Assembly (NCBI RefSeq): GCF_024448165.1
Contig: NZ_JAMOLN010000004.1
Span: 51,667 to 115,666, forward strand
From: Streptomyces longispororuber
GTDB taxonomy: Bacteria > Actinomycetota > Actinomycetes > Streptomycetales > Streptomycetaceae
Reading direction: 5' to 3'
DNA: 64,000 nucleotides
Part shown: positions 1 through 33,157 of the stretch, in pieces
How positions within the stretch are numbered: the stretch's first letter is position 1
How the letters are laid out: each line of letters opens with the position of its first letter
Notes under the pieces: generated by a model
What the model was told of the DNA's origin: nothing
What the model saw: only the letters and a program-made list of their open reading frames with translations
The model's database searches: none
Position numbers and translations under genes: made by a program

Positions 1-3000
1 GCACGGGCCCGCTTCGACCACCGTGCGGTGGTCGTGGGCGAGACTCGTGAGGAACTCCTCGACGCACTGCGCGCGCTGACCCCGGGCGAGACGGCCACGA
101 CGGGCTCGCTGGCGTTCCTGTTCTCCGGCCAGGGCAGTCAACGCCTGGGCATGGGGCGCGAGTTGTACGCGGCCGAGCCGGTGTTCGCCGCGGCGTTCGA
201 CGACGTGGTCGCGGCGCTGGACGTCCACCTCGACCGTTCGCTCGCCGGCGTGATCGAGGGTGAGCCGGAGCTGCTGGAGCGGACGGTGTTCACGCAGCCG
301 GCGCTGTTCGCGATCGAGGTGGCGCTGTTCCGCCTGCTGGCCCACTACGGGGTGACGCCGGACTATCTGGTGGGTCACTCGGTGGGTGAGTTGGCTGCGG
401 CTCATGTGGCGGGTGTGCTGTCGCTTCCGGACGCGGCGCGTCTGGTGTGTGCGCGGGCCCGTCTGATGGAGCAGGTCGCCGAGGGCGGGGCGATGGCCGC
501 CCTGAACGCGGGGGAGGAGCAGGTCTCCGAGTGGCTCGCGGGCCGCTCGGGCGTGGAGGTGGCGGGGCTCAACAGCCCGGCCGGCACGGTCATTTCGGGT
601 GACGAGGCGGCCGTGCTCGACGTCCTGGAGCTGGCGCGCGGGGAAGGCGTGAAGGCGACACGGCTGAAGGTGAGCCACGCTTTCCATTCCGCGCATCTGG
701 ACGGCATGCTGGACGAACTCACCTCAGTGGCACAGGAGTTGATCCACGCGGCACCCCGCATCCCGGTCGTGTCGAACGTGACCGGTGAGGTGATCGAGGA
801 GTTCACGCCGGAGTACTGGGCCGTGCAGGCCCGCTCGGCGGTGCGGTTCGCCGACGGCGTCGCCACCCTGGCCGGACGGGGCGTGACGGCGTTCGTGGAG
901 CTGGGCCCCGACGCGACGCTCGCCGGTCTGGCGGGCGAATGCCTGGCCGACACCGAGGGCGTCGTCGTGGCCCCGGTCCTGCGCAAGGACCGCGCCGAGA
1001 AGCGCTCCCTGCTCGCCGCCCTTGGCGCCGTGCACGCCCACGGCGTGGAGGTGGACTGGGCGGGCTTCCTGCCGGGTTCCGGCGTGGTGGAGCTGCCGAC
1101 GTACGCGTTCCAGCGCGAGCGATTCTGGCTGGACGCACCGCGTTCCGGCGACGCGGCCGGCCTGGGCCTGACGGCCGTGGACCATCCGCTGCTGGCCGCC
1201 GTGATCACGGAGCCCGACGGTGACGCGGTGCAGTTCTCGGCCTCCGTGTCGCTGTCCTCGCATCCGTGGCTGGCCGACCACGCGATCGGCGGGACGGTTC
1301 TCGTCCCGGGCACCCTGTTCCTGGAACTTGCGGGCACCGCGGCCGAACAGCTGGGGCACGCCACCGTGGAGGAACTCACCCTCCAGGCACCCCTGATCCT
1401 CCCGCGGCGGACGGCTGCCCAACTGCGGCTGACCGTCGACCGGGCCGACGCGCGCGGCGACCGCCGGTTCACCGTGTACGCCCGCACCGGCGAGGAGCAG
1501 TGGACCGCCCACGCGGCAGGACTGCTCACCTCCGCCGTCCCCGCGCCGGGCATCGCCCTCGACCAGTGGCCCCCGGCCGACGCCACCCCCGTCCCGCTGG
1601 ACGGCGTCTACGACCGCCTCGACGACCTCGGCTACGGCTACGGGCCCGCCTTCCACGGTCTGCGCGCCGCCTGGCGCGCGGGCGACGACGTGTTCGCCGA
1701 GGTCGCCCTGCCCGACCGGCTGCACACCGAGGCCGCGCGCTGCGGCGTGCACCCCGCCCTCCTCGACGCCGTGCTGCACCCCCTTGTACTGGAGGCCGCG
1801 GACCCGGCGGGGGACGACGGCACGATCCGGCTGCCGTTCTCGTTCTCGGGCTTCGCGCTGCACGCGGTCGGTGCCACGGTGCTGCGCGTCCGCTGGACCC
1901 GTACCGGCCAGGACACGGCCCGTCTCGCGCTCGCCGACGGCACCGGCGCCCCGGTGGCGGCGATCGAATCGGTCGCCCTGCGGCCCATCGCCCGTGACCG
2001 GCTCGCCGTCGCCGAACCGGCCGTCGAGTCCCTGTACCGGGTGGCCTGGGAGGCCCTCCCCGCGGTCGAGCCGGTCGCCGACCAGCGCTGGGTCAGCATC
2101 GGCGGGGCCCCCTACGCCGACCTCGCCGCGCTCGGCGCCGCCGTCGACGGCGGCACCGCCGCACCGGAGTTCGTGGTGCTCGGCGAGCAGCAGCTCGTCG
2201 TAGGTGCCTCCGACGACGTACTCGACCGGACCCATGCCACCGCGGCGCGCGGCCTCGACGCGGTGCGCGCATGGCTGGCCGCCCCGCAGTTCGCGGAGAG
2301 CCGCCTCGTCCTCGTCGTACCGGACGGCGCGCTGCACACGGCCCCGCTCGTCGGCCTCGTCCGCACCGCGCAGACCGAGCAGCCCGGCCGGCTCGTCCTC
2401 GCCCACCTGGACGAGAGCGGCGCCGAGCTGCTGCCGGCCGTGCTGGCCTCCGGCGAGCCCGAAGTGGCCGTGCGGGACGGCGCGTTGCTCGTGCCGCGCC
2501 TGACGCGTGCCCCGGGTGCCGTCGAAGGCGCGGTGGACGCTCTGGACCCGGAGGGCACGGTCCTGGTGACCGGCGCCCTGGGTACCTTGGGCCGGCTGGT
2601 GGCACGCCGGCTGGTGACGCGGCACGGCGCACGGCACCTGCTGCTGGTGTCGCGGCGTGGGAGTGACACTCCGGGAGCTGCCGAATTCGTCGCCGAACTG
2701 GGGGAGTTGGGGGCCAGTGCCCGGGTGGCGGCGTGCGACGTGGCGGACTTCGACGCGCTGGCGGGGCTGCTGGACGAGGTCGCGGCCCAGCGTCCGCTGA
2801 CCGCCGTGGTGCACACGGCGGGCGTTCTCGACGACGTGACGGTCGCGTCGCTGTCGGCCGACCGCCTGGAGCGGGTGATGCGCCCGAAGGTGGACGCGGC
2901 CTGGAACCTGCACCGCCTCACCGAGTCCCTCGGCCTCGCCTCGTTCGTCCTGTTCTCGTCCATCGCCGGTCTCATGGGCAACGCGGGCCAGGCCAACTAC

Positions 3001-6000
3001 GCCGCCGCGAACACCTTCCTCGACGCCCTCGCGCAGCACCGCCGCGCCCGGCACCTGCCCGCCACCTCCCTCGCCTGGAGCCTGTGGGACAGCGCCGACG
3101 GCATGGCCGGAACCCTCGCCGACGCCGACGTCGCCCGGTGGAAGCGGAGCGGCATCGTCCCGCTGACCCCGGACCTGGGCCTCGACCTGTTCGACGCGGC
3201 GCTCGCCTCGGCCGAGCCGCTGCTGGTCCCCGCCGAACTCGACCTGGCCGCCCTGCGCGCCCGCGCCACGGAGAACGCGCTGCCCGAACTGTTCACCGGC
3301 CTGGTCCGCGTCCGCCGCAGGCAGGCGGCCGGCACCGCCCCCGGCGCCGACTCGTCGTGGGCACAGGAGTTGACCGCGCTCACCACGGAGGAGCGGGCAC
3401 GGGCCGTGCTCCGGACCGTGCGGGAGACCGTCGGACTGGTCCTCGGCCACGGCGCCGACGCCGACATCGACCCGGCCAGGGCGTTCAAGGACACCGGCTT
3501 CGACTCCCTCACCAGCGTCGAACTGCGCAACCGCCTCAACGCGGTGACCGGGCTGCGCCTGCCCACCACCCTCGTCTTCGACCACCCGTCGCCGCAGGCG
3601 GTGGCGGACTTCCTGCTGGAGCGGCTCGACGCCACCGGATCGGCCGCCGTCCCGGCGACGACCGCCCACTCCCCGGGACTCGACGAGCCGATCGCCGTGG
3701 TCGGCATGGGCTGCCGCTACCCGGGCGGAGTCTCCTCGCCCGAGGACCTGTGGCGGCTCGTCGCGGAGGGCCGCGACGCCATCGACACGTTCCCGTCCGA
3801 CCGCGGCTGGGACGTGGAAACCCTCTACGACCCGGACCCCGACAAGACCGGCACTTCGTACACGCGCAAGGGCGGATTCCTCTACGAGGCGGCCGAGTTC
3901 GACGCCGAGTTCTTCGGACTCAGCCCGCGCGAGGCGATCGCGACCGACCCACAGCAGCGGGTCCTCCTGGAGGTCGCCTGGGAGGCGCTGGAGCGTGCGG
4001 GGATCGACCCCGCCGCGCTGCGCGGCTCCTCGACCGGCGTCTACGCGGGCGTCATGTACAACGACTACGGGTCGCGGCTCGGAGGTGCGCCGGAGGGCTT
4101 CGAGGGACATCTGCTGACGGGCACGATCTCCAGCGTCCTGTCGGGCCGGGTGGCCTACACGTTCGGTCTCGAAGGGCCCGCGGTGACGCTGGACACCGCG
4201 TGCTCCTCCTCGCTGGTGGCCGTCCACCTGGCCGCGCAGGCGCTGCGCCAGGGCGAATGCTCGATGGCCCTGGCCGGCGGTGTCACGGTGATGTCGACGC
4301 CGACGACCTTCGTCGAGTTCTCGCGGCAGCGCGGCCTGTCGCCGGACGGGACCTGCAAGTCGTTCGCCGCGTCGGCGGACGGCACCGGCTGGGGCGAGGG
4401 CGCCGGCATGCTGGTCCTGGAGCGGCTGTCGGACGCGCAGCGGCTCGGGCACCACGTCCTCGGCGTGATCCGCGGTTCCGCGGTCAACCAGGACGGCGCG
4501 AGCAACGGCCTCACCGCCCCCAACGGGCCCTCCCAGGAACGCGTCATCCGCCAGGCCCTCGCCAACGCCCGCCTCGCCCCGCACGAGGTCGACGCGGTCG
4601 AGGCGCACGGCACCGGCACCCGGCTCGGCGACCCGATCGAGGCCAACGCGCTGCTGGCCACCTACGGCCAGGACCGCGACGAGCCGCTGCGCCTCGGTTC
4701 GATCAAGTCGAACATCGGTCACACGCAGGCCGCCGCGGGCGTCGCGGGCATCATCAAGATGCTGATGGCGATGCGCAACGGAGAGCTTCCGGCGACGCTG
4801 CACGTGGACGAGCCGACGCCGCACGTCGACTGGTCGGCGGGCGCGGTGGAGCTGGTCACCGAGCACCGGGCGTGGCCGGAGGTGACGCGTCCGCGGCGCG
4901 CGGCCGTGTCCTCGTTCGGCATCAGCGGCACGAACGCGCACGTGGTCCTGGAGCAAGGTCCCGGGCAGGCCGTGACCGACGGGCCGGTGGCGGCGGAGCT
5001 GCCCGGGCTGCCGCTCGTGCTGTCGGCGAAGAGCGAGGCGGCCCTCGCGGCGCGGGCCGGCCAGGTGCGGGAGCTGCTGGCCGCGGACACCACCGACCCG
5101 GCGCGGGTCGCCTCGGCGCTCGCGACCCGGGCCCCGCACCTCCCCTTCCGGGCGGCCGTCTCGGGCACCGGCCGGGACGAACTGCTGGCCGGTCTCGACG
5201 CGCTGGCCTCCGGCGAGGTCGCGGCGAACCTCGTGCAGGGCGCGGTCACCGGCCGGGGCAGGACGGTGTTCGTGTTCCCCGGGCAGGGTTCGCAGTGGCA
5301 GGGCATGGCCCTGGAACTCGTCGGCTCCTCCCCGGTGTTCGCCGCCCGGCTGGCCGAGTGCGAGCGGGCGCTGGCACCGTTCACCGACTGGTCGCTGCTG
5401 GACGTCCTGCGCGGTGCGGACGGCGCGCCCGGCCTGGACCGGGTGGACGTGGTGCAGCCGGCGCTGTGGGCGGTGATGGTGTCCCTGGCCGCGCTGTGGC
5501 GTTCGGTGGGCATCGAGCCCGACGCGGTGATCGGCCACTCGCAGGGCGAGATCGCGGCGGCCGTCGTGTCGGGGGCGCTGTCCCTGGACGACGCGGCGAA
5601 GGTCGTCGCGCTGCGCAGCCGGGCGATCGTACGGCTGGCGGGTACGGGCGGGATGGTCTCGGTGGCCCTGCCGGCCGACGAGGTCCGCGCACTCGTCACC
5701 CGCTGGGACGGCGCCATCGACATCGCCGCCCACAACGGTCCGCGATCCGTCGTGGTCGCCGGAGAGGTGACCGCCCTGGAAGAGCTCGTCGCCCACTGCA
5801 AGGACAACAAGAAGCGCGCCAAGCGCATACCGGTCGACTACGCCTCCCACTCCGCGCACGTCGAGAGCCTGCGCGACGAACTCCTCGACGCCCTGACCTC
5901 CCTCACCCCGCGCCCCGTCGAGGTGCCCTTCCTCTCCACCGTCACCGGGCAGCCGCTGGAGGGCACGGAGCTCGACGGCGCGTACTGGTTCCGCAACCTG

Positions 6001-9000
6001 CGCAACACCGTCCAGCTGGAGGAGGCCACCCGGACCCTGCTCGACCAGGGCCACCGCGTCTTCATCGAGGCCAGCGCCCACCCGGTGCTGACCATCGCCC
6101 TCCAGGAGACGATCGACGACACGGCGCACGACACCGCCGTCACCGTGCCCTCGCTCCACCGCGGCGAGGGCGGACTCGACGACTTCCTGGCCTCCGCCGC
6201 GCAGGCCCACGTCGCGGGCGCCCCGCTCGACTGGGCCGCCGTGACCGGCGGCCCCGGCACGGCCGTCGACCTGCCGACCTACCCCTTCCAGCGCCGCCGC
6301 CACTGGCTGGAGGGCCCGGCCACGGCCGGGGACGCGAGCGGACTCGGCATGGCCACCGAGCGGCACCCGCTCATCGGGGCCGCGGTCCGCACCGCCGACG
6401 AGGACAAGCTCGTCCTGAGCAGCAGGATCGCCCTCGACACCCAGCCCTGGCTGGCCGACCACGCCGTGGCCGGCACCGTGCTGCTCCCCGGCACCGCCTT
6501 CGTGGACCTCGCCGTCCGGGCAGGGGACCACACGGGCCTCGACCGGCTCGACGAACTGACCCTCCAGGCACCGCTGGTGCTGGCCGCCCGCGGCGCCGTA
6601 CAGCTCCAGGTCGTGGTCGACGCCCCGGACGAGGAGGGCCGGCGCGCCCTGTCGGTCCACTCCCGCCCGGAGCCCGGGTCCGACGACGCCGCGACCCACC
6701 CGTGGACCCTGCACGCCACCGGCGTCCTGGGCCACGCGGACGGACCCGCTGACCCGCCCGTCGTCACCGCCTGGCCGCCGGCCGGCGCCGAGCCGGTCGA
6801 CCTGACGGCGGCGTACGACACGCTCGCCGAGCGGGGCTTCCAGTACGGCCCCGCCTTCCAGGGCCTGCGGGCGCTGTGGCGCGCGGGACAGGAGACGTAC
6901 GCCGAGGTCGCGCTGCCGACGGACGTCCCCCCGGGCGAGTTCGGCATCCACCCGGCCCTCCTTGACGCCGCCCTGCACCCCCTGGCCCTCGCGGCCGACG
7001 GCCGCCTGGTGCTGCCGTTCGCCTGGACCGGCGTACGGCTGCACGCGACCGGCGCCGACGTGCTGCGCGTACGGATCACCCCGCACGGCTCGGGCGCCGC
7101 CCTGTCCCTCACCGACACGAGCGGCATGCCCATCGCCTCGGTGGAGACGCTCGGCCTGCGGCCCGTGGACCCCGCACAGCTGGCCGGTGCGGGTACTCCC
7201 CGTCAGCCGCTGCTCCAGGTGGAGTGGACGACCGCCCCCAAGGCGGAACCGGCCACCGCGTGGGCCGTCCTCGACGACGCCGGCCACGGACTGCCCGCGC
7301 CGCTGGGCAGCTCCCCCGACCTCACCGGCCTGGCCGACGTCCCGCCGCTCGTCGTGGTCCCCTTCCCCGGCGACGACGGCCCCCGCGCCGGGGCGCACCG
7401 CGCCCTGCGGCTGGCCCAGGAGTGGCTCGCCGACGAGCGGTTCGCCGACGCGCGCCTGGTCTTCGTGACCCGTGACGCGACCACCGCCCGCACGGAGGCC
7501 GGACTCGGCGCGGCTCCCGTCTGGGGTCTCGTACGCACCGCGATGGCCGAGAACCCGGGCCGGTTCGGCCTGCTCGACCTGACGGACTGGGACCTCTCCG
7601 AAGCCGAGCTCGGCCGCGCGCTGGCCGTACCGGACGGGCAGGCGAGCCTGCGTGACGGGACCCTGCTCGTACCGCGCCTTGCCACGGCCACGCCGCCTGC
7701 GGCGGACTCCACCGCGCCCACCCTGAACCCCGACGGCACCGTGCTCGTCACGGGCGCCACCGGCACCCTCGGCCGGCTCTTCGCCCGCCACCTCGTCGCC
7801 GAACACGGCGTACGGCACCTGCTGCTGGCGAGCCGCCGCGGCCGGGACGCCGCGGGCATGCTGGAGCTGGAGGCCGAACTCACCGCCCACGGAACCGACG
7901 TGTCCGTCGTCGCCTGCGACACGGCCGACCGGGCCGCGGTCGCCGCGCTGCTGGACGCGATCCCCACCGAGCACCCGCTCACCGCGGTCCTGCACACCGC
8001 GGGCGTCCTCGACGACGGCACGCTGCCCGCCCTCACCGCGGAGCAGCTCGACACCGTGTTGCGCCCCAAGGTCGATGCCGCCCGGCACCTGCACGAGCTG
8101 ACGGCCGGCCTGGACCTGGCCGCGTTCGTCCTGTTCTCCTCGCTGGCCGGCACGGTCGGCACCGCCGGGCAGGCCAACTACGCGGCGGCCAACACCTACT
8201 TGGACGCCCTCGCGCAGCACCGCACGACCCTGGGCCTGCCCGGTACGTCGCTGGCCTGGGGCCTGTGGGCCGAGGGCAGCGGGATGACCGGTCACCTGAC
8301 CGACGCCGACCTCGCCCGCCTGTCCCGCGGCGGCATCGCCCCGATCGGCAGCGAGCAGGGCCTCGCCCTGTTCGACGCGGCCCTCGCGAACGACCGGCCG
8401 GTGCTCGTCCCGGCGCTCCTCGACCACACCGGGCTGCGGGCCCGGAGCGCGGACGGCACGCTGCCCGCGCTCTTCCACGGCCTGGTGCGCCCCGCGCGGC
8501 GCGCCGCCGCCTCCGGCGCCGACGAGCGGACGGGCGGGAACTCGCTCAGGGAACGCCTGGCGCCCCTGCCCCCCACGGACCAGGAGCGCGCGCTCCTCGA
8601 ACTGGTCCGCGGCGCAGTGGCCTCCGTACTGGGCCATGCCGACGCCGACGGGATCGCACCCGAACGGGCCTTCAACGAGCTGGGCTTCGACTCGCTCAAG
8701 GCGGTGGAACTGCGCAACCGGCTGAACGCGGCCGCGGGCCTGAAGCTGCCCGCGACGCTGCTGTTCGACCACCCGAGTACGGCCGAGCTGGCCGCCTTCC
8801 TGCGCACCGAACTGCTCGGCCCGGCCGACGGGACGACCGACGCCGGAGCCGCCGTCGCAGGACCGGTGGCCGACACCTCCGACGAGCCGATCGCGATTGT
8901 CGCCATGGCCTGCCGCTACCCGGGCGAGGTCAGCTCCCCGGAGGAGCTGTGGACGCTGCTGTCCGACGAGCGGGACGCCATCGGTCCGTTCCCCGACGAC

Positions 9001-12000
9001 CGCGGCTGGGACCTGGACGGCCTGTACGACACGGACCCCGACCACGCGGGCACCTCGTACACCCGGCACGGCGGATTCCTCTACGAGGCGCCGCAGTTCG
9101 ACCCCGAACTCTTCGGGGTGAGTGCCCGCGAGGCCACCGCCATCGACCCGCAGCAGCGCCTCCTGCTGGAGATCTGCTGGGAGGCCTTCGAGCGCGCCGG
9201 CATCGACCCGACCTCGCTCAAGGGCAGCCAGACCGGCGTGTTCGCCGGTGTGATGGCCAACGACTACGCGGCACGCCTCAAGGACGCCCCCGAAGGGATG
9301 GAGGGCTATCTGTCGGTCGGCAGCACGGTCTCCGTCGCCTCCGGCCGCGTCGCCTACACCTTCGGCCTGCAGGGGCCGGCGATCACCGTCGACACCGCCT
9401 GCTCGTCCTCGCTCGTCTCGATCCACCTCGCCGCGCAGGCACTGCGCAACGGCGAGTGCGGCCTCGCCCTGGCCGGCGGCGCGACCGTACTGGCCGCCCC
9501 GACCCTGTTCGTCGAGTTCAGCCGGCAGCGCGGCCTGGCCCCCGACGGCCGCTGCAAGTCCTTCTCCGCGCGGGCGGACGGGGCCGCCTGGGCCGAAGGC
9601 GCCGGCGTCCTCCTGCTGGAGCGGCTCTCCGACGCCCGGCGCAACGGCCGCAGGATCCTCGGCGTGATCCGCGGCACCGCCGTCAACCAGGACGGCGCGA
9701 GCAACGGCCTCACCGCACCCAACGGCCCCGCCCAGGAACGGGTGATCCGCCAGGCCCTGACCAACGCGGGCCTGACCACCGCCGACGTCGACGCGCTGGA
9801 GGCGCACGGCACCGGCACCACGCTGGGCGACCCGATCGAGGCCAGGGCCGTCCTCGCCACCTACGGGCAGGACCGCCCCTCGCCGCTCCTGATGGGCTCC
9901 CTGAAGTCCAACATCGGCCACTCGCAGGCCGCCGCCGGGGTGGCAGGCGTCATCAAGATGGTCATGGCGATGCGGCACGGGGTGCTCCCCAAGAGCCTCC
10001 ACATCGACGAGCCGAGCCCGCACGTGGACTGGTCCGCCGGCGAGGTGGAACTGCTCACCGACGCGATGCCGTGGCCCGGGTCCGAGCGGCCGCGCCGGGC
10101 AGGCGTGTCCTCCTTCGGCATCAGCGGCACCAATGCCCACGTCATCGTGGAGCAGCCGCCGGCCGATGCGCCGGACGCGCAAGCCGAACCGGCCGCACCG
10201 ATGCCGGTCGTGCCGCTGCTGCTGTCCGCGCACAACGAAGCGGCCCTGCTGGCGCAGGCCGACCAGGTGGCCGCGGCCCTCACCGGCACCGACCGGCAGG
10301 ACCTGGCACCGACGGGCCGGACCCTGGCCGTCGGACGGGCCGCACTGCCGCACCGCGCCGTGGTGGTCGCCGCCACCGCCCCCGAAGCGGTCGACGCCCT
10401 CGCCGCACCGGCCGTACGCGGCACCCCCGTGGACGGCCGGACCGCCTTCCTCTTCACCGGCCAGGGCAGCCAGCGACTCGGCATGGGCCGCGAGTTGTAC
10501 GCCGCCTACCCCGTCTACGCCCACGCCCTCGACGCCGTGTGCGCGGAGCTCGACCCCTGGCTGGAGACACCGCTGCTCGACGTCCTGTTCGGCGAGGACC
10601 CGGCGCCGCTGGACCGGACCGGCTTCACGCAGGCCGCCCTGTTCGCCACCCAGGTCGCGCTCTTCCGCCTCCTCGAAAGCTGGGGCGTACGACCGGACTT
10701 CCTCGCGGGCCACTCCATCGGCGAACTGGCCGCCGCACACGTCGCCGGCGTCCTCTCCCTGCCGGACGCGGCGCGGCTCGTCGCGGCCCGCGGCCGGCTG
10801 ATGCAGGCCCTGCCCGAGGGCGGCGCCATGCTCGCCGTCCAGGCCGAGGAGCAGGAAGTGCTGCCGCTGCTCGCCGGACGCGAGGACCAGCTCGACGTCG
10901 CCGCCGTCAACGGCCCCGCCTCCGTGGTCCTGTCGGGCGACGCGGCAGCCGTCGAGGCCGTCGGCGCCGAACTCGCCGCCCTGGGCCGCAAGACCAAGCG
11001 GCTGCGCGTCAGCCACGCCTTCCACTCCCCGCACATGGACGCGATGCTGGACGAGTTCCAGACGGTCGCTAAGGGCCTCACCTACGCCGCGCCCGCCATC
11101 CCGGTCGTCTCCACCCTGACCGGGCGGCGAGTCGGCGCGGAGGACCTGACCACGCCCGAGTACTGGGTGGAGCACGTCCGCCGTCCTGTGCGCTTCCTGG
11201 ACGCGGCCCGCGCCCTGGAGGCCGAAGGCGTACGGACCTACCTGGAACTCGGCCCCGACGGCGTGCTCAGCGCGCTGGGACAGGACTTCCTCGACCCCGC
11301 GTCGGTCCTGGTCCCGATGGTGCGCGGCGGGCGCCCCGAGCCGCACACCGCCGTCACCGCCGTGGCCCACGCCCACGTACGGGGCGTACCGGTGGACTGG
11401 CCCGCCCTGTTCGGCGGGAGCACCGCACCGGCAGCGGACCTGCCGACGTACCCCTTCCAGCGCAGGCGCCACTGGCTCACCGACGGGCCCGGCGGCGGCG
11501 ACGTCACCTCGGCCGGACTCGACTCCGCGCGGCACCCGCTGCTCGGGGCCGCGGTGCCGCTCGCCGACTCCGACGGCGTCCTCTTCACCGGCCGGATCTC
11601 GGCCCGCAGCCACCCCTGGTTCGCCGACCACGCCGTCGCCGGGACCCTGCTGGTCCCGGGCACGGCCCTGGTCGAGCTCGCGCTCCACGCGGGCACCGCA
11701 CTCGGCTGCGAGCGGCTTGAGGAACTCGCCCTCCAGGCACCCCTGGTCCTCCCCGACGAGGGCGCGCTCCAGCTCCAGATCACCGTCGGCGGCCCCGACG
11801 ACGACGGCCGCAGGCCCGTCGCCGTCCACTCGCGCGGCGACCAGGAGGGCGACGTCTGGAACCGGCACGCCACCGGAACCGTGACGGCCGCCGTCCCCGA
11901 CCCCGGCCCCGCACCCGACCTCGCGTCCTGGCCGCCGGCCGGCGCCGAACCCCAGCCGGTCGACGACCTGTACGACCGCCTCGCCGACCAGGGCTACGGC

Positions 12001-14217
12001 TACGGCCCCGCCTTCCAGGGCCTGACGGCGGCCTGGCGGTCGGGCGACGACCTCTACGCCGAGGTACGGCCGCCCGCCGACCACGCCGAATCCGGCGGAT
12101 TCGCCCTGCACCCGGCCCTGTTCGACGCCGCGCTGCACGCCCTGCTCCTGGAGGAGCCGGCCGGACTGCGGCTGCCCTTCTCCTTCGGCGGCGTCCGGCT
12201 GACCGGGTCCCCGGCCGGTGCCTTGCGGGTCAAGCTGTCGACCCGCCCGGACGGCACGGTCGCGGTCACCATCGCCGACGAGACGGGCGCGCCGGTCGCC
12301 GACGTCGCCTCCCTCGCCCTGCGGGCCCTCCCGGCGGGCAGCGCGCTGCAACGCCCCTCCGCCCCGCACCTGTACGCGGTGGAGCGGGCCGCTGTGGCAC
12401 TCGCCGACGGCGGCGACCCGTACGTCGTGGTCCTCGGCGGGACCGACACCGGACTCGCCGCCGAGCAGCACGCCGACCTCGCCGCCCTGGCCGCCGCGAC
12501 GGCGGACGGCGCGAGCGCACCCGACGTCGTCGTCCTGCCGGTGCGCCCGGCCCCGGTGCAGGAGACCGGCCGGGTCACGCGGGAGGTGCTGGCGGTCCTG
12601 CGGGAGTGGCTCGCCACCGACCTGCCGGACGGAGCGCGGCTCGCCGTGGTCAGCACCGGGGAACTGGCGCACAGCGCGCTGTCCGGGCTGCTCAGGACCG
12701 CCGAGTCGGAGCACCCGGGACGCTTCCAGCACGTCGTCACGGACGGCCTGCCGGCCGATCGCGCGCTGCTCGCCGCCGCCCTGGCCGACCCCCGGCCGCA
12801 GCTCGAACTCCACGACGGACAGGCCCGCGTGACCCGGCTCGCCAAGGTCCCGCACCCGGCCCAGAACCAGACCCAGCCCCAGGCCCCGGACGCCGACGCC
12901 GCGTTCGACCCGGAGCACACGGTGCTGATCACCGGCGGCACGGGCGCACTCGGCGCCCAGGTCGCCCGGCACCTGGTGACCGCCCGCGGCGCCCGCCACC
13001 TGCTGCTCACCAGCCGGCGCGGCGGGGCGGACGACCTGGTCGCCGAACTGACGGCGCTCGGCGCTGACGTACGGGTCGCCGCCTGCGACGCGGCCGACCG
13101 CGACGCGCTGGCCGCACTGCTCGCCTCGGTCCCGGCCGAGCACCCGCTCACCGCGGTCGTGCACGCGGCCGGAGTCGTCGAGGACGCCACGCTGGAGGCC
13201 ATGGGCCCGGAGAGCCTCGACCGGGTCCTGCGGCCGAAGGTGGCGGCCGCCTGGAACCTGCACGAGCTGACCGCGGGCCTCGGACTGACGGACTTCGTCC
13301 TGTTCTCCTCCGTCGCCGGTCTGGTGGGCAACGCGGGACAGGCCAACTACGCGGCGGGCAACACCTTCCTGGACGCGCTCGCCGAACACCGGCGCGCGGA
13401 CGGCCTGCCCGCCGTCTCCCTCGCCTGGGGCATGTGGCAGGACGGCATGGCGAACGACCTCGACCACGCCGACCGCGCCAGGCTCGCCCGCAACGGAATC
13501 CTGCCGATGCCGACCGACCGGGCGCTCGCGGCCCTCGACACGGCCCTGACCGGGGCCGCGGCGCCCCAGGCCGACGGCGCGGCGGGCACCCGTCCTGTGC
13601 TCGCACCGGTGGCCCTCGACCTCGCGGCACTGCGCGGCCTCGGCGACGCACTGCCCGAGCTGTACCGGGGCCTGGTGCGCACCGAACGCCGAGCCGGCCG
13701 CAGCGCCACCGCCCCGACGGAGATCCCGCTGGCGCAGCGGCTCACGGGCCTGGACGCCGAAGAGCAGCAGCAGTTGCTGCTCGACTTCGTCAGGGAACAG
13801 GTCGGCACCGTCCTGGCCCACCCGGCCCCGCGGACGATCGACGTCCAGCGCGGACTGATGGACCTGGGCCTCGACTCCCTCACCGCCGTCGAACTGCGCA
13901 ACAGGCTGAACAACGGCACCGGACTGCGGCTGCCCAGCACGCTCGTCTTCGACCACCCGACCACCAGGGCCGTCGCCGAATTCCTGTGGAGCGAGCTGGT
14001 CGGCGAGGCACCGGACCCGGTCCAGGCCGCCCTCGACGCACTGGAGACGGCGCTCGCGGCCGCCGGCCCGCCGGACGGTGACGGGCCGTCAGGAACGTAC
14101 GCCGCGCGGCTGCGCGGCCTGCTCCGGACGGTGGACGGCGCCCCCGACGGCACCGACCTCGACCTGGCGACGGACGACGACCTCTTCGCCGCACTCGACA
14201 ACGAACTCGGCAGGTAG
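1..14217 (+). CDS. Modular type I polyketide synthase, 5'-partial (AT-DH-KR-ACP; KS-AT-DH-KR-ACP x2)
   Basis: The frame is open from base 1, and the first residues look like a KS-AT linker, so the gene begins outside the window. Module A: AT about 112-940 (GHSVGE; HAFHS, malonyl type), DH 1180-2000 (H-x3-G-x4-P and HPALLD), KR 2558-3110 ([11 protein letters not shown]), ACP 3390-3620 (FDSL). Module B: KS 3682-4960 (TACSSS, EAHGTGT, KSNIGH), AT 5263-6110 (GHSQGE; YASHS, methylmalonyl type), DH 6361-7170, KR 7735-8280 (LDD), ACP 8590-8810. Module C: KS 8881-10150, AT 10441-11290 (HAFHS), DH 11530-12340, KR 12919-13450 (VED in place of LDD), ACP 13780-14000. The last 65 or so residues look like a C-terminal docking region. 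Catalytic residues appear intact in every domain. LDD-type KRs usually give the B (D-hydroxyl) configuration that DHs convert to trans double bonds; that outcome is inferred. The product is not identified. Translation is probably coupled to the next PKS gene, 2 bp away. Confidence 0.97.
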
Positions 14218-14219
14218 AC

Positions 14220-25694
<11,475 letters not shown>

Positions 25695-25717
25695 GGCACA
25701 CAAACTCCGGGAGTGCA

Positions 25718-25756
25718 ATGAGCGAAATCCGGAACAGCGAAATGCACGACAAGTAA
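25718..25756 (+). other. Possible 12-codon micro-ORF after the PKS terminus
   Basis: An ATG preceded by GGGAG at normal spacing opens a 12-codon frame (MSEIRNSEMHDK) that ends in TAA before the helicase promoter. It could be a leader peptide or the leftover start of a deleted gene, or it may be chance. A weak CATGG/CCATG inverted repeat lies just after it at 25781-25796. Nothing else is visible between the PKS stop and the palindrome at 25813, and I see no strong terminator there. Confidence 0.2.
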
Positions 25757-25812
25757 GCGACGAGCAATACGTTCGGCCGTCATGGATTCAGCCATGGGGG
25801 CACGGCTCCAAC

Positions 25813-25832
25813 AGGTAAGTCAAGACTTACCT
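25813..25832. promoter_or_regulatory. 20-bp perfect palindrome, probable operator of the helicase gene
   Basis: Two 9-base arms, AGGTAAGTC and GACTTACCT, are exact inverted repeats around a central AA. The right arm covers the candidate -35 hexamer of the helicase gene, which is where a repressor would act. It is not an iron box, because the arms are too far apart, and it does not look like the rifamycin-associated element known upstream of helR genes. Confidence 0.6.
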
Positions 25833-25855
25833 TTGGGGAGCTGTGGCCCTATGGT
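25827..25855 (+). promoter_or_regulatory. Candidate promoter of the HelR-like gene
   Basis: TTACCT (25827-25832) and TATGGT (25850-25855) are separated by 17 bp and would start transcription near 25862. That leaves a short leader containing GAAGGAG (25868-25874) before the proposed TTG start at 25882. An earlier in-frame GTG at 25843 would lie upstream of this transcript. The hexamers match consensus only moderately. Confidence 0.4.
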
Positions 25856-25881
25856 GTGGCTCGAATCGAAGGAGCCCTTTG

Positions 25882-28062
25882 TTGTCGAAGAAGAATGATT
25901 CTGCTGTGCGTGCGGTTGAATCGGAGCAGGATTATGTGTCCTCCTTGTACGCCGTGCTCGGCGAGCGCCTTTCCGAGGCGAGAGCGCAGCGCGCGAGTGT
26001 GCTGAAGGCGCCGACGGACAGCGCAGGCGAGGCGTACGAGAGGGAAATCGCCGCCGAGCGCCTCGCCAAGGAGATCGGCCGGCTGGAGGGCGCCGAGAAA
26101 GGACTCGTCTTCGGCCGCATCGACTGGACGGACGGCACGGCCCTGCGCATCGGGCGGATCGGACTGCACACCGAGGAGGACGACCTGCCCCTGCTCGTGG
26201 ACTGGCGCGCGAACGCGGCGCGGCCCTTCTACGAGGCGACGCCGGTCCACCCGATGGACCTGCGGCGGCGCCGGCACCTGCGCCTCGACGAGCGCACGGT
26301 CGTCTCGGTGAGCGACGAACTGCTCGACGGGACCGACCCGACCGACGAGGACGTCGTGGGGGACGGCCCGCTCACCGAGGCGCTGTCGGCCCGGCGCACC
26401 GGCCGGATGCACGCGGCCGTCGCCACGCTGCAGGCCGAGCAGGACGAGATCGTCCGCTCCCGCCACCGCGGCGTGACCGTGGTGCAGGGCGGACCCGGCA
26501 CCGGCAAGACAGTGGTCGCCCTGCACCGGGCGGCCTACGTCCTGTACGCGTTCCCGCGCGCAGCGGAGGAGGGCGTCCTGGTGGTGGGCCCCAACGCCCG
26601 GTTCCTCGACTACATCTCGCAGGTCCTGCCCTCGCTCGGCGAGAACGACGTCGTCCTGGCGACCTGCCGGGAACTGGCCGCGACGGCCACGGACACCGTG
26701 ACCGCTCTGGACCCGGCGGACCCGGCGGACCCGGCGGACATGGTGACGGACTCGTTCGACACGGCGCGCCTCAAGGGCGGTTCGGACCTCGCCGACGCCT
26801 TGACCGGGCTGCTGCGCACCCACCAGGCCCCCGACGGCGACTTCGCCGTACGCGTCGGACAGGAGCTCGTCCACCTGTCCGAGGAGGACGTCGCCACGGC
26901 CCGCGCCGCCGCCGTGTCGGCCGTGCCGGGGCACAACCCCGCGCGCCAGGTGTTCAAGGAGCTCCTGGCCGACGCCGTCACCGACGCGATGCAGCGGGAC
27001 ATGGGTGACCTGCTGGAGCAGATCGACGCCGATGCCGAGAGGATGACCGGCCTGAACCTCGACCGGTTCACGGGCGCCGCCCAGCGCCGTGCCGAAGGCG
27101 CGGCCGAGCCGGGTCCCGCCCACGAACTGGACCTGGACGCCCTGCGCGCCGACCTTCTCGGGGACGCGGGCTTCGACGGAGCGGTCGAGGAGCTGTGGCC
27201 GCGCCTGGCCCCCGACGCCCTCGTGCAGGCGCTCCTGACGGACGCCGACGCCCTCGCCGAGCACCTGCCCCGCCTGACCGCGCCCGAACGAGACCTTCTG
27301 CTGCGCGGTCCCGACGACCCGTGGACCGAGGCCGACGTGCCGTTGCTGGACGAGGCGGCGAGCCTGGTCGACGGCCCGCCGGAGCGGACGTACGGGCACG
27401 TCGTCGTCGACGAGGCGCAGGAACTCACCGCCATGCAGTGGCGGATGATCGTGCGCCGCTGTCCGGGACGGGCGATGACGCTGGTGGGCGACTTCGCCCA
27501 GGCGGGCCCGGTCGCGACCGCACGGGACTGGAAGGAAGCGCTGGCTCCGCACGTCGGACCGCGGTTCAAACTGCACAACCTGACCGTCAGTTACCGCACC
27601 ACGCAGGAGATCCTGGACAGCGTCCGGGACCTGCTCACGCGGATCGCCCCCGACCAGGAACCCACCCGGTCACTGCGGAGCGGCGAAAGCCCGCGCACCG
27701 TGACCACACCTCACGACGAATTGGCGACCGCCGTCCTGCGGGAACTCCGCGCCCAGAACAGCGCCCAGCCGGACGAACTGCTGGGAGTGATCTGCGCGGA
27801 CGACAGGGTGGGCGAACTGACGACCCAGGGAGTCGCGCAGCACGCCCGCATCGTCCCGGCGTCCGAAGCGCGCGGACTGGAATTCGACGGAGTCGTCGTG
27901 ATGAATCCCGAGGAAATCATCACGGCCCGGCCGGGCGGGGAAAGGGACTTGTACGTGGCGCTCACCCGGGCCACCAAACGTCTCTGCACCATCACCGCCC
28001 AACCGGTTCCGGCGGACCTGGTCGGTCAGGACAGCAGCCGGTCGACCAGCCCGTCGACGTAG
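25882..28062 (+). CDS. helR: HelR/HelD-type RNA polymerase-associated helicase (UvrD-like)
   Basis: The roughly 726-residue protein has the layout of HelD-family RNA-polymerase-binding helicases. A charged N-terminal coiled-coil segment (about residues 10-75) comes first, and in the family this arm enters the RNAP secondary channel. A superfamily 1 core follows, with Walker A GGPGTGKT (about residue 203), Walker B VVVDEAQE (about 507) and LVGDFAQ (about 534). Actinobacterial HelR displaces rifamycins from RNAP; HelD recycles stalled polymerase. I chose TTG 25882 because GAAGGAG ends 7 nt upstream and the candidate promoter fits; TTG 25879 or GTG 25843 are alternatives. A 9-bp repeat (26710-26736) encodes DPADPADPAD inside the protein. 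The gene sits directly behind the PKS, suggesting target protection, and its end overlaps the convergent tetR by 37 nt. Helicase family membership is secure; assignment to HelR rather than generic HelD is inferred. Confidence 0.85.
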   Translation: MSKKNDSAVRAVESEQDYVSSLYAVLGERLSEARAQRASVLKAPTDSAGEAYEREIAAERLAKEIGRLEGAEKGLVFGRIDWTDGTALRIGRIGLHTEEDDLPLLVDWRANAARPFYEATPVHPMDLRRRRHLRLDERTVVSVSDELLDGTDPTDEDVVGDGPLTEALSARRTGRMHAAVATLQAEQDEIVRSRHRGVTVVQGGPGTGKTVVALHRAAYVLYAFPRAAEEGVLVVGPNARFLDYISQVLPSLGENDVVLATCRELAATATDTVTALDPADPADPADMVTDSFDTARLKGGSDLADALTGLLRTHQAPDGDFAVRVGQELVHLSEEDVATARAAAVSAVPGHNPARQVFKELLADAVTDAMQRDMGDLLEQIDADAERMTGLNLDRFTGAAQRRAEGAAEPGPAHELDLDALRADLLGDAGFDGAVEELWPRLAPDALVQALLTDADALAEHLPRLTAPERDLLLRGPDDPWTEADVPLLDEAASLVDGPPERTYGHVVVDEAQELTAMQWRMIVRRCPGRAMTLVGDFAQAGPVATARDWKEALAPHVGPRFKLHNLTVSYRTTQEILDSVRDLLTRIAPDQEPTRSLRSGESPRTVTTPHDELATAVLRELRAQNSAQPDELLGVICADDRVGELTTQGVAQHARIVPASEARGLEFDGVVVMNPEEIITARPGGERDLYVALTRATKRLCTITAQPVPADLVGQDSSRSTSPST
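26710..26736 (+). repeat. 9-bp x3 in-frame tandem repeat in the helicase gene
   Basis: GACCCGGCG occurs three times head to tail, encoding DPA three times. It sits in a variable region between Walker A and the later helicase motifs, so copy-number change would alter a flexible acidic loop without shifting the frame. Confidence 0.8.
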
Positions 28063-28592
28063 TCCGCAGTGAGCTCCATGCCGAACAGGACGCGGATGTA
28101 CATTGGGGCCAGGACGTGGTCGAGCACGTCGAGCACACCGGGCGGTCGTTCACCGCGTTCGGTGGCGCGATCGAGCATGGCCTGCATCTGCCGCGTCCGT
28201 TCGGCGAGGAGGCCGTCGCGCGCCTGCGGGCCCTGCCGGCCGTCGGCCGACAGGGCGACGGCCAGGCGCACCACCGCCAGTCCGTCGGGTCCGGTGATCT
28301 CGCGGGCCACTTGGGCCGCGTACGTGCGCAGGTCGCCGGCGACGCTCCCGGTGTCGGGCATCGGCGACTGCGCGTTGAGGCGGGTGAGCGCCACGTCGCT
28401 GAGCAGGGCCTCCAGGCTGCCCCACCGGCGGTAGATGCTGCTGTCGGCCACGCCCGCGCGGGTGGCGACCTCGCCGACGGTGAAGTTGCCGTAGCCGCGC
28501 TCACTGATGAGGTCGGTGACGGCCTGGTGCACCTGCGCGCCGACGCGCGCGCTGCGTCCGCCGGGCCGCCGGACCGGCTGTCGCTCGTTCAT
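28026..28592 (-). CDS. TetR-family transcriptional regulator
   Basis: The 188-residue protein has an N-terminal TetR helix-turn-helix (about residues 20-65, including FTVGEVATRAGVADSSIYRRWGS) and an all-helical ligand-binding C-terminal half. GGAGGG precedes the ATG. It is transcribed away from the MFS gene, and the shared 145-bp gap holds two related inverted repeats placed over the promoter elements. It therefore probably represses itself and the exporter until a ligand binds. Its 3' end overlaps the helicase gene tail to tail by 37 nt. The ligand is unknown; the neighbouring polyketide is an obvious candidate but this is inference. Confidence 0.93.
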   Translation of the reverse strand: MNERQPVRRPGGRSARVGAQVHQAVTDLISERGYGNFTVGEVATRAGVADSSIYRRWGSLEALLSDVALTRLNAQSPMPDTGSVAGDLRTYAAQVAREITGPDGLAVVRLAVALSADGRQGPQARDGLLAERTRQMQAMLDRATERGERPPGVLDVLDHVLAPMYIRVLFGMELTADYVDGLVDRLLS

Positions 28593-28675: not shown

Positions 28676-28737
28676 GGCGCTCGGGGCTGACCACGTCGGC
28701 CGTGGAGAGGCTCAACCAACAAGTGAGAGGAATCCCC

Positions 28738-30201
28738 ATGGCTGCATCGCCCGCGACCGCAGGCAGCCGGTCGAACCCGGCCGTGCTGCTCACGGTGACC
28801 TGCCTGGGCCAGTTCATGGTCCTGCTCGACAACACGATCGTCGGAGCCGCGCTGCCCGACATGCAGCACCGGCTGCACACCGAACTGACCGGTCTGCAGT
28901 GGATCGTCGACGCGTACGTCCTGCTGGTCGCCATGCTGCTGCTGTCCGGCGGCGTCTTCGCCGACCGCTTCGGCCGCAAGCGGGTGTACCTGACCGGCGT
29001 CGCGGTGTTCACCGCCGCGTCCCTGCTGTGCGCCCTCGCGCCCTCGCTCGGCTGGCTGATCGTCGGCCGCGTGCTGCAGGGCGTCGGAGCCGCGGCCCTG
29101 AGCCCCGCCTCGCTCGCCCTGCTCGCCGCCGCGTATCCCGTACCGCAGGAGCGGATGAAGGCGATCGGGATGTGGGCCGGGTTCAGCGGCATCGGTCTCG
29201 CCGCGGGCCCGGTGGCCGGCGGCGTGCTGACCGAGGCCTTCGGCTGGCCCGCCATCTTCCTCGTCAACCTGCCCATCGGCGTGGTCCTGCTGCTGGTCGG
29301 CGTGCGCCACCTCGGCGAGTCCCGCAATCCGCACGCTCCCGCGATCGACGTCCCGGGCACGGTGCTGTCCGTCCTGGCCGTGGGCGTCCTGACCTACGGT
29401 CTGATCGAGGGCGCCGCCCGCGGCTGGACCTCCCCGGTCATCCTGGGCAGCTTCGCCGCCGCGGCGGTCCTCCTCGCCGCCTTCATCGCCGTCGAGGCAC
29501 GCCGGTCCGCTCCGATGCTCCCGCTGGGCCTGTTCCGCCGGCGCCTGTTCACCGTGTCCAACACCGCCATGACGGTGGTGGGGTTCGCGCTCATGGGCTC
29601 GTCGTTCTTCTTCTCCCAGTTCTTCGTGTACGTCCAGGGCAGCTCGATCCTCCGCGCCGGCCTGCAGACGCTGCCGCTGTCCCTCGCGATGGTGGTCGTC
29701 AGCCCGTACGCGGGCCGGCTCGCCGCGCGGTACGGCTTCCGCATCGTGGTCACCGTCGGCATGGCCCTGGCCGGTCTCGGCCTGCTGGCACTCGGCACGG
29801 TGCACGCCGACACCGGCTACGGGAACGTGTGGTGGCGGCTCGGCATCGCCGGTGCCGGCTTCGCCCTGGCCATGTCCCCGCTGACGGGAGCCGCCATCCA
29901 GGCGGTCAGCCCGCAGGAGGGCGGCCTCGCGTCCGGCATCAGCAGCACCACCCGGCAGATCGGCGCGGTGTTCGGCGTGGCCGTCCTGGGAGCCATCGTC
30001 CGCGCCCGGCAGTCCGGCGGCGCCTCCTTCGAGTCCGGCCTCAACAGCGCCTTCCTCGCCGCAGGAGCCGTCACCTTGGTCACCGCCGTGTTCACCGGCC
30101 TCTGGCTGGCCAAGTCCAGGCCCGCGCAGGCCACCGCGGCGCCGCAGCCCTCCGCCGAGGCGGTCACGGCCCTGAACGAGGCGCCCGCGAACAGCCGTTG
30201 A
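28738..30201 (+). CDS. MFS drug exporter, DHA2-like (14 TM)
   Basis: This 487-residue inner-membrane protein resembles DHA2-type drug/proton antiporters. The first helix carries LDNTIVGAALPDM, motif A GGVFADRFGRKRV follows TM2, and about 14 hydrophobic segments alternate with short loops to a polar C-terminus. I chose the ATG at 28738 because GAGAGG lies just upstream and similar transporters begin near here; the frame is open a further 36 nt. It is divergent from tetR with operator-covered promoters, the standard layout of a ligand-induced efflux pair. It may export the neighbouring polyketide. A strong terminator follows. Confidence 0.93.
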   Translation: MAASPATAGSRSNPAVLLTVTCLGQFMVLLDNTIVGAALPDMQHRLHTELTGLQWIVDAYVLLVAMLLLSGGVFADRFGRKRVYLTGVAVFTAASLLCALAPSLGWLIVGRVLQGVGAAALSPASLALLAAAYPVPQERMKAIGMWAGFSGIGLAAGPVAGGVLTEAFGWPAIFLVNLPIGVVLLLVGVRHLGESRNPHAPAIDVPGTVLSVLAVGVLTYGLIEGAARGWTSPVILGSFAAAAVLLAAFIAVEARRSAPMLPLGLFRRRLFTVSNTAMTVVGFALMGSSFFFSQFFVYVQGSSILRAGLQTLPLSLAMVVVSPYAGRLAARYGFRIVVTVGMALAGLGLLALGTVHADTGYGNVWWRLGIAGAGFALAMSPLTGAAIQAVSPQEGGLASGISSTTRQIGAVFGVAVLGAIVRARQSGGASFESGLNSAFLAAGAVTLVTAVFTGLWLAKSRPAQATAAPQPSAEAVTALNEAPANSR

Positions 30202-31968: not shown

Positions 31969-32562
31969 ATGGCTCAGAACGCTATGGCCACGTCCGTCAC
32001 GGCTGTGACCCGAACCGGCACCTCGCGATCCGGCCTCTCCGGGGCCGGCGTCCCCCGGTCCGAGGCCGCCGGGTCGGAACTTCTCCGGACCATCGTGGGA
32101 GAGCACCGCGCCGGACTGGTCTCGTACGCCGAGAAGATGCTGGGCGATCGCGGGCTCGCCGAGGACATCGCCCAGGAGACCGTCATCCGGGCCTGGCGGA
32201 ACATCGACCGGCTGCTCGGCATGGAGGGGTCGGTCCGGGGCTGGCTCTTCACGGTCGCCCGCCACCTGGTCATCGACCGGGTCCGCAGGGCGCACGTACG
32301 ACGGGAAGTCGTCGGGGAGGCCCACCACGAGCGCGCTTCGGGCCCGGACGGCACGGCGCTCGTCCACGACACCCTGGTGGTCAGGCCGCTGCTGCTCCGG
32401 CTCTCCCCCGAACACCGCGCCGTACTGGTGCACATCTACCTGTGCGACCGCAGCATCCAGGAGACCGCCGGCATCCTGGGCGTGCCGACCGGAACCGTGA
32501 AGAGCCGTCACCACAACGCCCTGCGCAAGCTCCGCGCCGTGGCCCGCCGCGAGGCCGCCTAG
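31969..32562 (+). CDS. ECF-family RNA polymerase sigma factor
   Basis: The 197-residue protein has sigma-70 region 2 (about residues 45-110, with LAEDIAQETVIRAWRNI and RGWLFTVARHLVIDRVRR) and region 4 (about 135-190, with SIQETAGILGVPTGTVKSRHHNALRKL), the two-domain ECF layout. It resembles Streptomyces SigL-type ECF factors. The ribosome site at the ATG is poor (CCAGG); a second ATG lies 15 nt downstream. No anti-sigma gene is adjacent, so control is probably transcriptional through the palindrome/-10 region upstream. Neighbouring SsgA-like and Wbl genes suggest a role in development or secondary metabolism, but the targets are not visible. Confidence 0.93.
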   Translation: MAQNAMATSVTAVTRTGTSRSGLSGAGVPRSEAAGSELLRTIVGEHRAGLVSYAEKMLGDRGLAEDIAQETVIRAWRNIDRLLGMEGSVRGWLFTVARHLVIDRVRRAHVRREVVGEAHHERASGPDGTALVHDTLVVRPLLLRLSPEHRAVLVHIYLCDRSIQETAGILGVPTGTVKSRHHNALRKLRAVARREAA

Positions 32563-32614
32563 CCGGTCCGGGGCGTACGGGTTGGTCAGGGGGTGGCTGC
32601 CCGGCCATGCGTCG

Positions 32615-32634
32615 GCCGCCGCGTGTGCGGCGGC
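32615..32634. terminator. Terminator hairpin between sigma factor and SsgA-like gene
   Basis: GCCGCCGC and GCGGCGGC form a perfect 8-bp GC stem with a GTGT loop, midway between the two convergent genes. Confidence 0.7.
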
Positions 32635-32689
32635 ATACGTGTGGAGTGGTGAGCACCGGCAGGTCATGCGTGGCCGGCCGCGGCCGTCG

Positions 32690-33157
32690 TCAGTCGGCCG
32701 TCGCCCCGGGGCTGCCGAGGAGCCTCCGCAGGAAGGCGTCCCAGTCCAGACCGGCCATCTCCGCCTCGGCGGTGACGATCCGGTACGTGGCGTCGAGCCA
32801 CTCCGCGAGCCGGGCGGTGGGCAGCTCGAACAGGGCCTCCACGTCCGGCGATTCGAGGAGCAGCCACGACGAGGGCCGCTCGCGGGACAGCGTCGGCCAC
32901 ATCCGGACCTCGCCCGACCCGCTCATCGACGTCACGCCGCGGTGCAGCAGCTCGCGGCCGATCCGCCACAGGAGGCCGGGGCCGCGTTCGGCGAGGAACT
33001 CGACGCTGATCACCGCGGGCGCGTCCGGGTCGAAGTGGAAGGCCGCCCGCACGGGCCGCCGGGTGAACTCGTCGAGCATCTGGTCGACGTCCAGGAGCAG
33101 CGGCGGTACGTGTCCGGGCACCGGACGCGCCCGCAGAGGTGACTGATCACGGTGCAT
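32690..33157 (-). CDS. SsgA-like sporulation/cell division regulator (SALP) 1
   Basis: The 155-residue protein fits the SsgA/SsgB-like family, small proteins that guide septum placement and wall synthesis in sporulating actinomycetes. Family hallmarks are a central GSGEVRMWP segment and a C-terminal FELPTARLAEWLDATY helix ending in LDWDAFL. I chose the ATG at 33157, with GAAGGGGA upstream. It is convergent with the ECF sigma gene and downstream of a hairpin (33194-33218) that separates it from the SnoaL-like gene. Its N-terminus is longer than that of SALP 2 in this window. It probably acts at the septum or membrane through partners; its specific role is unknown. Confidence 0.88.
   Translation of the reverse strand: MHRDQSPLRARPVPGHVPPLLLDVDQMLDEFTRRPVRAAFHFDPDAPAVISVEFLAERGPGLLWRIGRELLHRGVTSMSGSGEVRMWPTLSRERPSSWLLLESPDVEALFELPTARLAEWLDATYRIVTAEAEMAGLDWDAFLRRLLGSPGATAD

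Follow-up and report, generated by a model that had tools for sequence, protein, structure and literature searches.

The closest described relatives of the gene presented here are the class II HelD/HelR proteins (M. smegmatis HelD, structures 6YXU and 8Q3I; HelR of M. abscessus and S. venezuelae), in which two acidic residues at the tip of the HelR primary-channel loop are reported as required for rifampicin resistance (PMC10719064 section 8). Two further groups come close to it in single traits: class III HelD of Myxococcus is described as having no primary-channel loop either, and the small Streptomyces HelDs SCO4195 and SCO4316 are given as 680-681 aa (PMC8655204 section 3.5), a size close to that of our protein. 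On the biosynthetic side, the closest system is the annimycin cluster of S. calvus (MIBiG BGC0001298, identifier from PMC11199612). S. calvus ATCC 13382 is reported as an annimycin producer (PMC4525017), 4-Z-annimycin as an inhibitor of sporulation in various actinobacterial genera, and S. antarcticus as a carrier of a type I polyketide synthase (PKS) cluster with 77% similarity to the 4-Z-annimycin cluster (both PMC12451607). We describe here a locus where these two systems come together: a 64,000-nt stretch of Streptomyces longispororuber (GCF_024448165.1, NZ_JAMOLN010000004.1, positions 51,667-115,666, forward strand), hereafter the window, where a gene of the HelD family without the primary-channel loop, helR (25882..28062, plus strand), lies directly behind an annimycin-type PKS gene; we tentatively consider it a self-protection factor of the producer.

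Linkage of helR to the annimycin-type cluster

The biosynthetic genes of the window start with the 3' part of PKS1 (1..14217, plus strand), in which Pfam finds a KS-AT-ACP loading region and three KS-AT-DH-KR-ACP modules; read across the 34-base overlap between the window and the upstream piece of the same contig (L090, contig C334), the whole PKS1 begins at L090:7140 or 7194 and reaches up to 6247 aa. PKS2 follows (14220..25694, plus strand) with two KS-AT-DH-KR-ACP modules and a final thioesterase domain, its stop codon standing 187 bp before helR on the same strand, well in line with the distance of less than 200 bp first read from the letters alone. Across the two PKSs we count five extension modules containing DH and KR, ER giving no match, which fits the polyene chain of the original prediction; among the AT motifs, HAFH occurs five times and YASH once, which we take to mean malonyl and methylmalonyl specificity, respectively. 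Upstream of PKS1, on the same contig, an aminolevulinate-synthase-like gene is flanked by two ligase genes (L090:2782-7052), all three identified by their Pfam folds; any functional names beyond these folds are our assumption, from synteny. S. calvus T3018 shares the order ligase, synthase-like gene, ligase, PKS1, PKS2, with identities of 78% (ligase B), 89% (synthase-like), 87% (ligase A), 87% (PKS1) and 84% (PKS2). Judged from its genes, with those for the C5N unit and the orthologous type I PKS, the window cluster is an annimycin-type C5N polyene cluster.

The link between helR and this cluster is strong, and it was approached from both sides. On the PKS side, we searched 392 Streptomyces genomes, the window's own among them (10.5 Mb, 442 contigs), for the PKS2 end (E 1e-110 or better) and for helR (E 1e-250 or better, corresponding to 63% identity and up). 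The PKS2 end, a criterion free of helR bias, was found in six genomes and helR in 39, including all six of the former, the distance between helR and the PKS match being 0.2, 0.2, 2.2, 2.3, 2.6 and 2.9 kb in these (Fisher p 7e-7, kinship uncorrected). The adjacency of the same PKS and helicase thus recurs in other genomes, within 3 kb in each of the six, and the membership of helR in the cluster, until then a supposition based on gene order, was borne out. The worry that the helicase might be equally common beside unrelated genes is only partly justified: 33 of the 39 helR genomes carry no such PKS, yet every close PKS that was found has its helR.

On the helR side, 80 loci were kept out of 116 relatives, with flanks of up to 10 kb, several of them cut by contig ends; 11 of these loci sit in an annimycin-type cluster. 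PKS2 is 82-86% identical to the PKS pieces adjoining helR in 10 other loci, and the synthase-like gene is 86-89% identical in all 11 cluster-linked genomes, while none of nine other helR genomes tested has it above 70%. The KS motif DTACSS is present in the flanks of nine of the 11 cluster-linked loci and in the window, and in none of the 69 other loci. A tblastn search of the latter with the cluster genes gave one distant PKS-like match (L045, 37% identity) and, in L049 and L061, ligase- or thioesterase-like matches at 35-45%. The idea that helR generally accompanies PKS clusters was rejected on the count of DTACSS and this single distant match, nonribosomal peptide synthetase genes having been sought by short motifs only. 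As three of the six PKS-side genomes are the records behind L024, L029 and L076, the two samples add up to 14 different clusters.

These 14 clusters show four gene orders and two exporters, with helR in all of them. In arrangement A (window, L016, L024, L050), PKS2 is followed by helR, a reversed TetR gene and exporter A; in arrangement B (L011, which is the S. antarcticus type strain H27-S2, L019, L022, L029, L036, L043, L076, G080), exporter B stands between PKS2 and helR; in arrangement C (L028), an exporter and helR are found at the opposite end of the cluster; in arrangement D (G262), exporter B and helR are oriented toward the PKS2 end. S. calvus T3018 has exporter B behind PKS2 and then helR (84% identical to that of the window), whereas in the window helR comes right after PKS2, then TetR and another exporter. 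The TetR/MFS pair already noticed behind the helicase is therefore a feature of arrangement A only: the TetR regulator (28026..28592, minus strand; Pfam TetR_N and TetR_C_11, with an 83% identical copy in G195) overlaps the 3' end of helR, and the EmrB-type MFS exporter A (28702..30201, plus strand) matches TIGR00711 above cut-off. Exporters A and B being 33% identical to each other, the exporter varies while helR is common to all arrangements. In S. chattanoogensis (L017), exporter B and helR occur without any PKS within 10 kb, the closest synthase-like gene of the genome being 39% identical; this looks like a resistance pair without biosynthesis.

A HelD protein without the primary-channel loop

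The helR gene codes for 726 aa from a TTG start. Its open reading frame extends at most from a GTG at 25843 to 28062, but TTG 25882 is the better start, with GAAGGAG ahead of it, both being conserved in relatives; the range 25694-28062 initially assigned to the gene holds for its end only, 25694 being the PKS stop codon. Walker A (GGPGTGKT, 26488..26511, plus strand, invariant at all but one of its eight positions in an alignment of 44 HelDs) is coded exactly where it had been read, and Walker B (VVVDEAQ, 27400..27420, plus strand, DEAQ invariant in the same alignment) begins two bases before the approximate position 27402. Structural comparisons were made with a second model of the protein, the first one having been discarded (predicted local distance difference test score, pLDDT, 63.4). 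The coiled coil announced at the N-terminus corresponds in this model to a helical pair, residues 7-70 (25900..26091, plus strand), a predicted secondary-channel arm of the short class II type; the 142 N-terminal residues superpose at 1.7 Å on the N-terminal domain of M. smegmatis HelD (8r2m_H), and the predicted N-terminal arm and clamp arm are both present, on the fold of HelD bound to RNA polymerase (RNAP). With its Walker A and B motifs and this fold, the protein is a member of the HelD family of superfamily 1 (SF1) RNAP-recycling motors. Its top NCBIfam matches are motor_HelR_2 (455 bits, cut-off 1100), HelD_MYCSM (412, cut-off 1051) and motor_HelR (361, cut-off 750).

What sets the protein apart is the segment at the position of the primary-channel loop, which counts 26 residues versus 98-99 in looped HelDs; the site of the absent loop is reduced to 13 residues between LLDE and GHVVVDEAQ (27355..27393, plus strand), and the acidic loop tip (Msm Glu484/Asp485) is absent with the whole segment. 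Comparison with characterised HelR and HelD thus recovers one of the two elements that had been proposed as diagnostic, the secondary-channel arm, and not the other. Because the loop that ejects rifampicin is missing, the protein does not qualify as a rifamycin-type HelR acting by the established mechanism, and both the analogy with rifamycin resistance and a plain HelR identity had to be abandoned. By its sequence, the protein is best described as a class II-like HelD without primary-channel loop: it has in common with class II HelD/HelR (37-39% identity in structural alignments) the SF1 motor, the short secondary-channel arm, the clamp arm and the DWR motif, but it lacks the loop and its acidic tip and reads DWRAN where they read DWRAP. 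Class III HelD is loop-less too, but our protein is actinobacterial in sequence and has DWRANA, with no proline, in place of the class III hallmark DWRX[A/S]P. P0108 is a member of the loop-less HelD subfamily. Our pattern reading of the loop segment covered the loci other than L017, L040, L060, L068, L071 and L075; in L060 and L075 the reading frames are broken from the start codon used.

The genome of the window has three more HelD paralogues, 36-46% identical to the helR protein, on contigs C166, C417 and C18. The C166 copy carries the primary-channel loop. The C417 copy, a short one, is without it, as is the helR protein; it is 34% identical to the helR protein in the 44-HelD alignment and forms a separate, long branch in the tree. 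The C18 copy has a shorter loop segment (64 residues).

Palindrome, promoter and mobility

Ahead of helR lies a palindrome, AGGTAAGTC-AA-GACTTACCT (25813..25832), a predicted operator found at this single place in its own genome at up to two mismatches. It is common to most stand-alone helR copies: a scan of the 392 genomes gave 31 sites, spread over 29 of them, whereas the reversed control gave none, and 29 of the 31 sites are at most 75 bp before helR. The remaining two sites stand before a small SnoaL-like gene and an alpha/beta hydrolase in G150 and before a ferredoxin-reductase-like gene in G335 (L172 and L194, named by eye). With up to three mismatches in the 500 bp upstream, the core of the palindrome is present in 55 of the 69 other copies versus four of the 14 cluster copies. 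The neighbouring TetR was considered as the owner of the palindrome and rejected, because the palindrome persists at stand-alone copies that have no such TetR beside them. The palindrome also appears to differ from the rifamycin-associated element; the best match of the consensus used for that element at the helR locus has five mismatches out of 19, and none under four was found at the three paralogues.

The first hexamer (a weak −35) of a predicted promoter, TTACCT-17-TATGGT (25827..25855, plus strand), falls inside the palindrome; the promoter was recognised by eye on the strength of its conservation across the 80 loci, and was too weak to be matched in a consensus promoter scan. Inspection by eye of the palindrome for a convergent promoter pair in the style of B. 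subtilis (PMC12802891) gave no clear −10 on the antisense strand. Four loci (L040, L053, L062, L064) have no palindrome and show instead a promoter of the TTGAC..TTATA or TTGAC..CTATA type upstream of helR (L064 by eye, the others by pattern).

Between most helR loci, homology is limited to the gene and a short margin on either side, as a rule some 70-260 bp upstream and 40 bp or so downstream, some pairs sharing more, and helR was found on 10 plasmid records. In six of these records (H4-H8 and H10, two of them from one strain), helR lies 7-12 kb from the record end, and L036 is on a 10.7 Mb contig, less than 20 kb from its end; helR may have a preference for replicon ends. Nine stand-alone copies (L033, L037, L039, L044, L048, L070, L071, L072, L078) share parts of one conserved small-gene neighbourhood on the left of helR. 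In the trees, cluster and stand-alone copies mingle, with 10 label changes, at least six of them forced by starred branches. One tree was built without L060, with L075 kept on a very long branch, and the DNA tree of 65 genes without L060, L075 and 14 distant rows; as the resolution of the latter is weak, with stars on 12 of its 62 branches, it shows mingling and not the number of transfers.

Possible roles of helR

In its persistence across four gene orders and a change of exporter, in its separate pairing with an exporter in S. chattanoogensis, and in the private promoter of inducible appearance that it has in non-producers, helR resembles a resistance gene common to producers and their neighbours, and the known activity of the HelD family points to RNAP as the target. 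We thus favour, tentatively, the idea that a loop-less HelD is kept beside annimycin-type PKS genes as a self-protection factor clearing blocked RNAP in the producer; binding to RNAP, its protection and RNAP as the target of the compound are what we infer. The short N-terminal arm would enter the secondary channel, the clamp arm would wedge the primary channel open, and hydrolysis of nucleoside triphosphates would strip the arrested polymerase from DNA and loosen the bound inhibitor. As no loop reaches the active site, the rifampicin pocket would be left undisturbed, so that the inhibitor would be expected to bind elsewhere, for instance at the clamp, the switch region or the secondary channel. 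Non-producers would carry helR as an inducible, mobile resistance gene behind its palindrome; in most producers, where the palindrome is absent, it would likely be read with the biosynthetic or exporter genes.

One has to keep in mind several points that weigh against self-protection. The lost loop is the element reported to eject a drug in class II HelD (PMC10719064 section 8), and no annimycin target came up in the parts of the literature that were searched. With 33 of 39 helR genomes devoid of PKS2, helR does not require the PKS and must have another or wider use; the cluster copies, which fail to form a single clade and mingle with stand-alone ones in weakly resolved trees, give no hint that helR has adapted to the compound. 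In addition, a genome with a PKS relative at 58% identity (G527) has its sole HelD on another contig, at 43% identity, and the 11 clusters found via helR are a biased sample, to which three of the six unbiased ones also belong.

Other explanations fit parts of the same evidence. The protein could be an ordinary HelR, ejecting rifamycins via the primary-channel loop while its gene rides along with the cluster, as might be argued from the first rank of motor_HelR_2 in NCBIfam and from the 39% identity to 6yxu_H over 615 structurally aligned residues; with neither the loop nor the two tip residues that resistance needs according to PMC10719064, and with four HelR/HelD model scores each below half of its curated cut-off, we hold this to be highly improbable. 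A helper of transcription, recycling RNAP to ensure good transcription of some 30 kb of PKS sequence during late growth and conferring no resistance, would agree with what is described of HelD in general, which frees stalled RNAP, and with the 10 of 14 cluster copies that have no private palindrome, a situation suited to co-expression. However, long PKS genes in general seem not to recruit helR, given the absence of DTACSS around all 69 other loci and the single distant match at L045, and S. chattanoogensis has helR and exporter with no PKS nearby, making such a helper role unlikely.

The gene could also be a passenger, a mobile single-gene unit that entered an ancestral cluster and stays there by chance or by selection for resistance to polymerase inhibitors of other organisms. 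The short homology between loci, the plasmid copies and the scatter of cluster copies over the trees all speak for it; but a passenger should have been lost from some clusters, and none of the six unbiased clusters is without helR, which was moreover retained through every rearrangement and exporter swap, so that we would not expect this explanation to be the right one. Self-protection by helR can be extended further, to a statement that we regard as doubtful: annimycin-type C5N polyenes would inhibit RNAP outside the rifampicin pocket, which would account for the effect of annimycin on the sporulation of neighbours, and the loop-less HelD would be an immunity protein dedicated to them, co-expressed with the cluster in producers and acting as a palindrome-switched mobile resistance gene in about 1/12 of PKS-less Streptomyces (33/386). 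On this view it would be the first HelD linked to biosynthesis of a natural product in the open-licence literature searched, where none of the matches listed places a HelD inside a biosynthetic cluster.

Resistance genes within biosynthetic clusters point to targets. If self-protection is true, the sporulation-blocking activity of annimycin would gain a testable target, RNAP; HelD-type protection would extend past rifamycins, to a form without the ejecting loop; and Streptomyces with a stand-alone helR should resist annimycin, while those without helR should not. The "new inhibitor class" initially envisaged would then mean a new target for a described kind of compound, as the annimycin type is already known.

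Around the cluster, we noted a sigma-70 type factor and an SsgA-like sporulation protein a few kb downstream (window 31984-33121), then two large minus-strand proteins (33845-36652 and 40077-42839) with 38-39% mutual identity; AAA and LuxR-type domains were found in the first. On the upstream side of this contig (G000:C334:1-40000; L088, L089), acyl-CoA-dehydrogenase-like, acyl-carrier-protein-like and sugar-nucleotide-like genes, recognised by eye, apparently form a further biosynthetic cluster.
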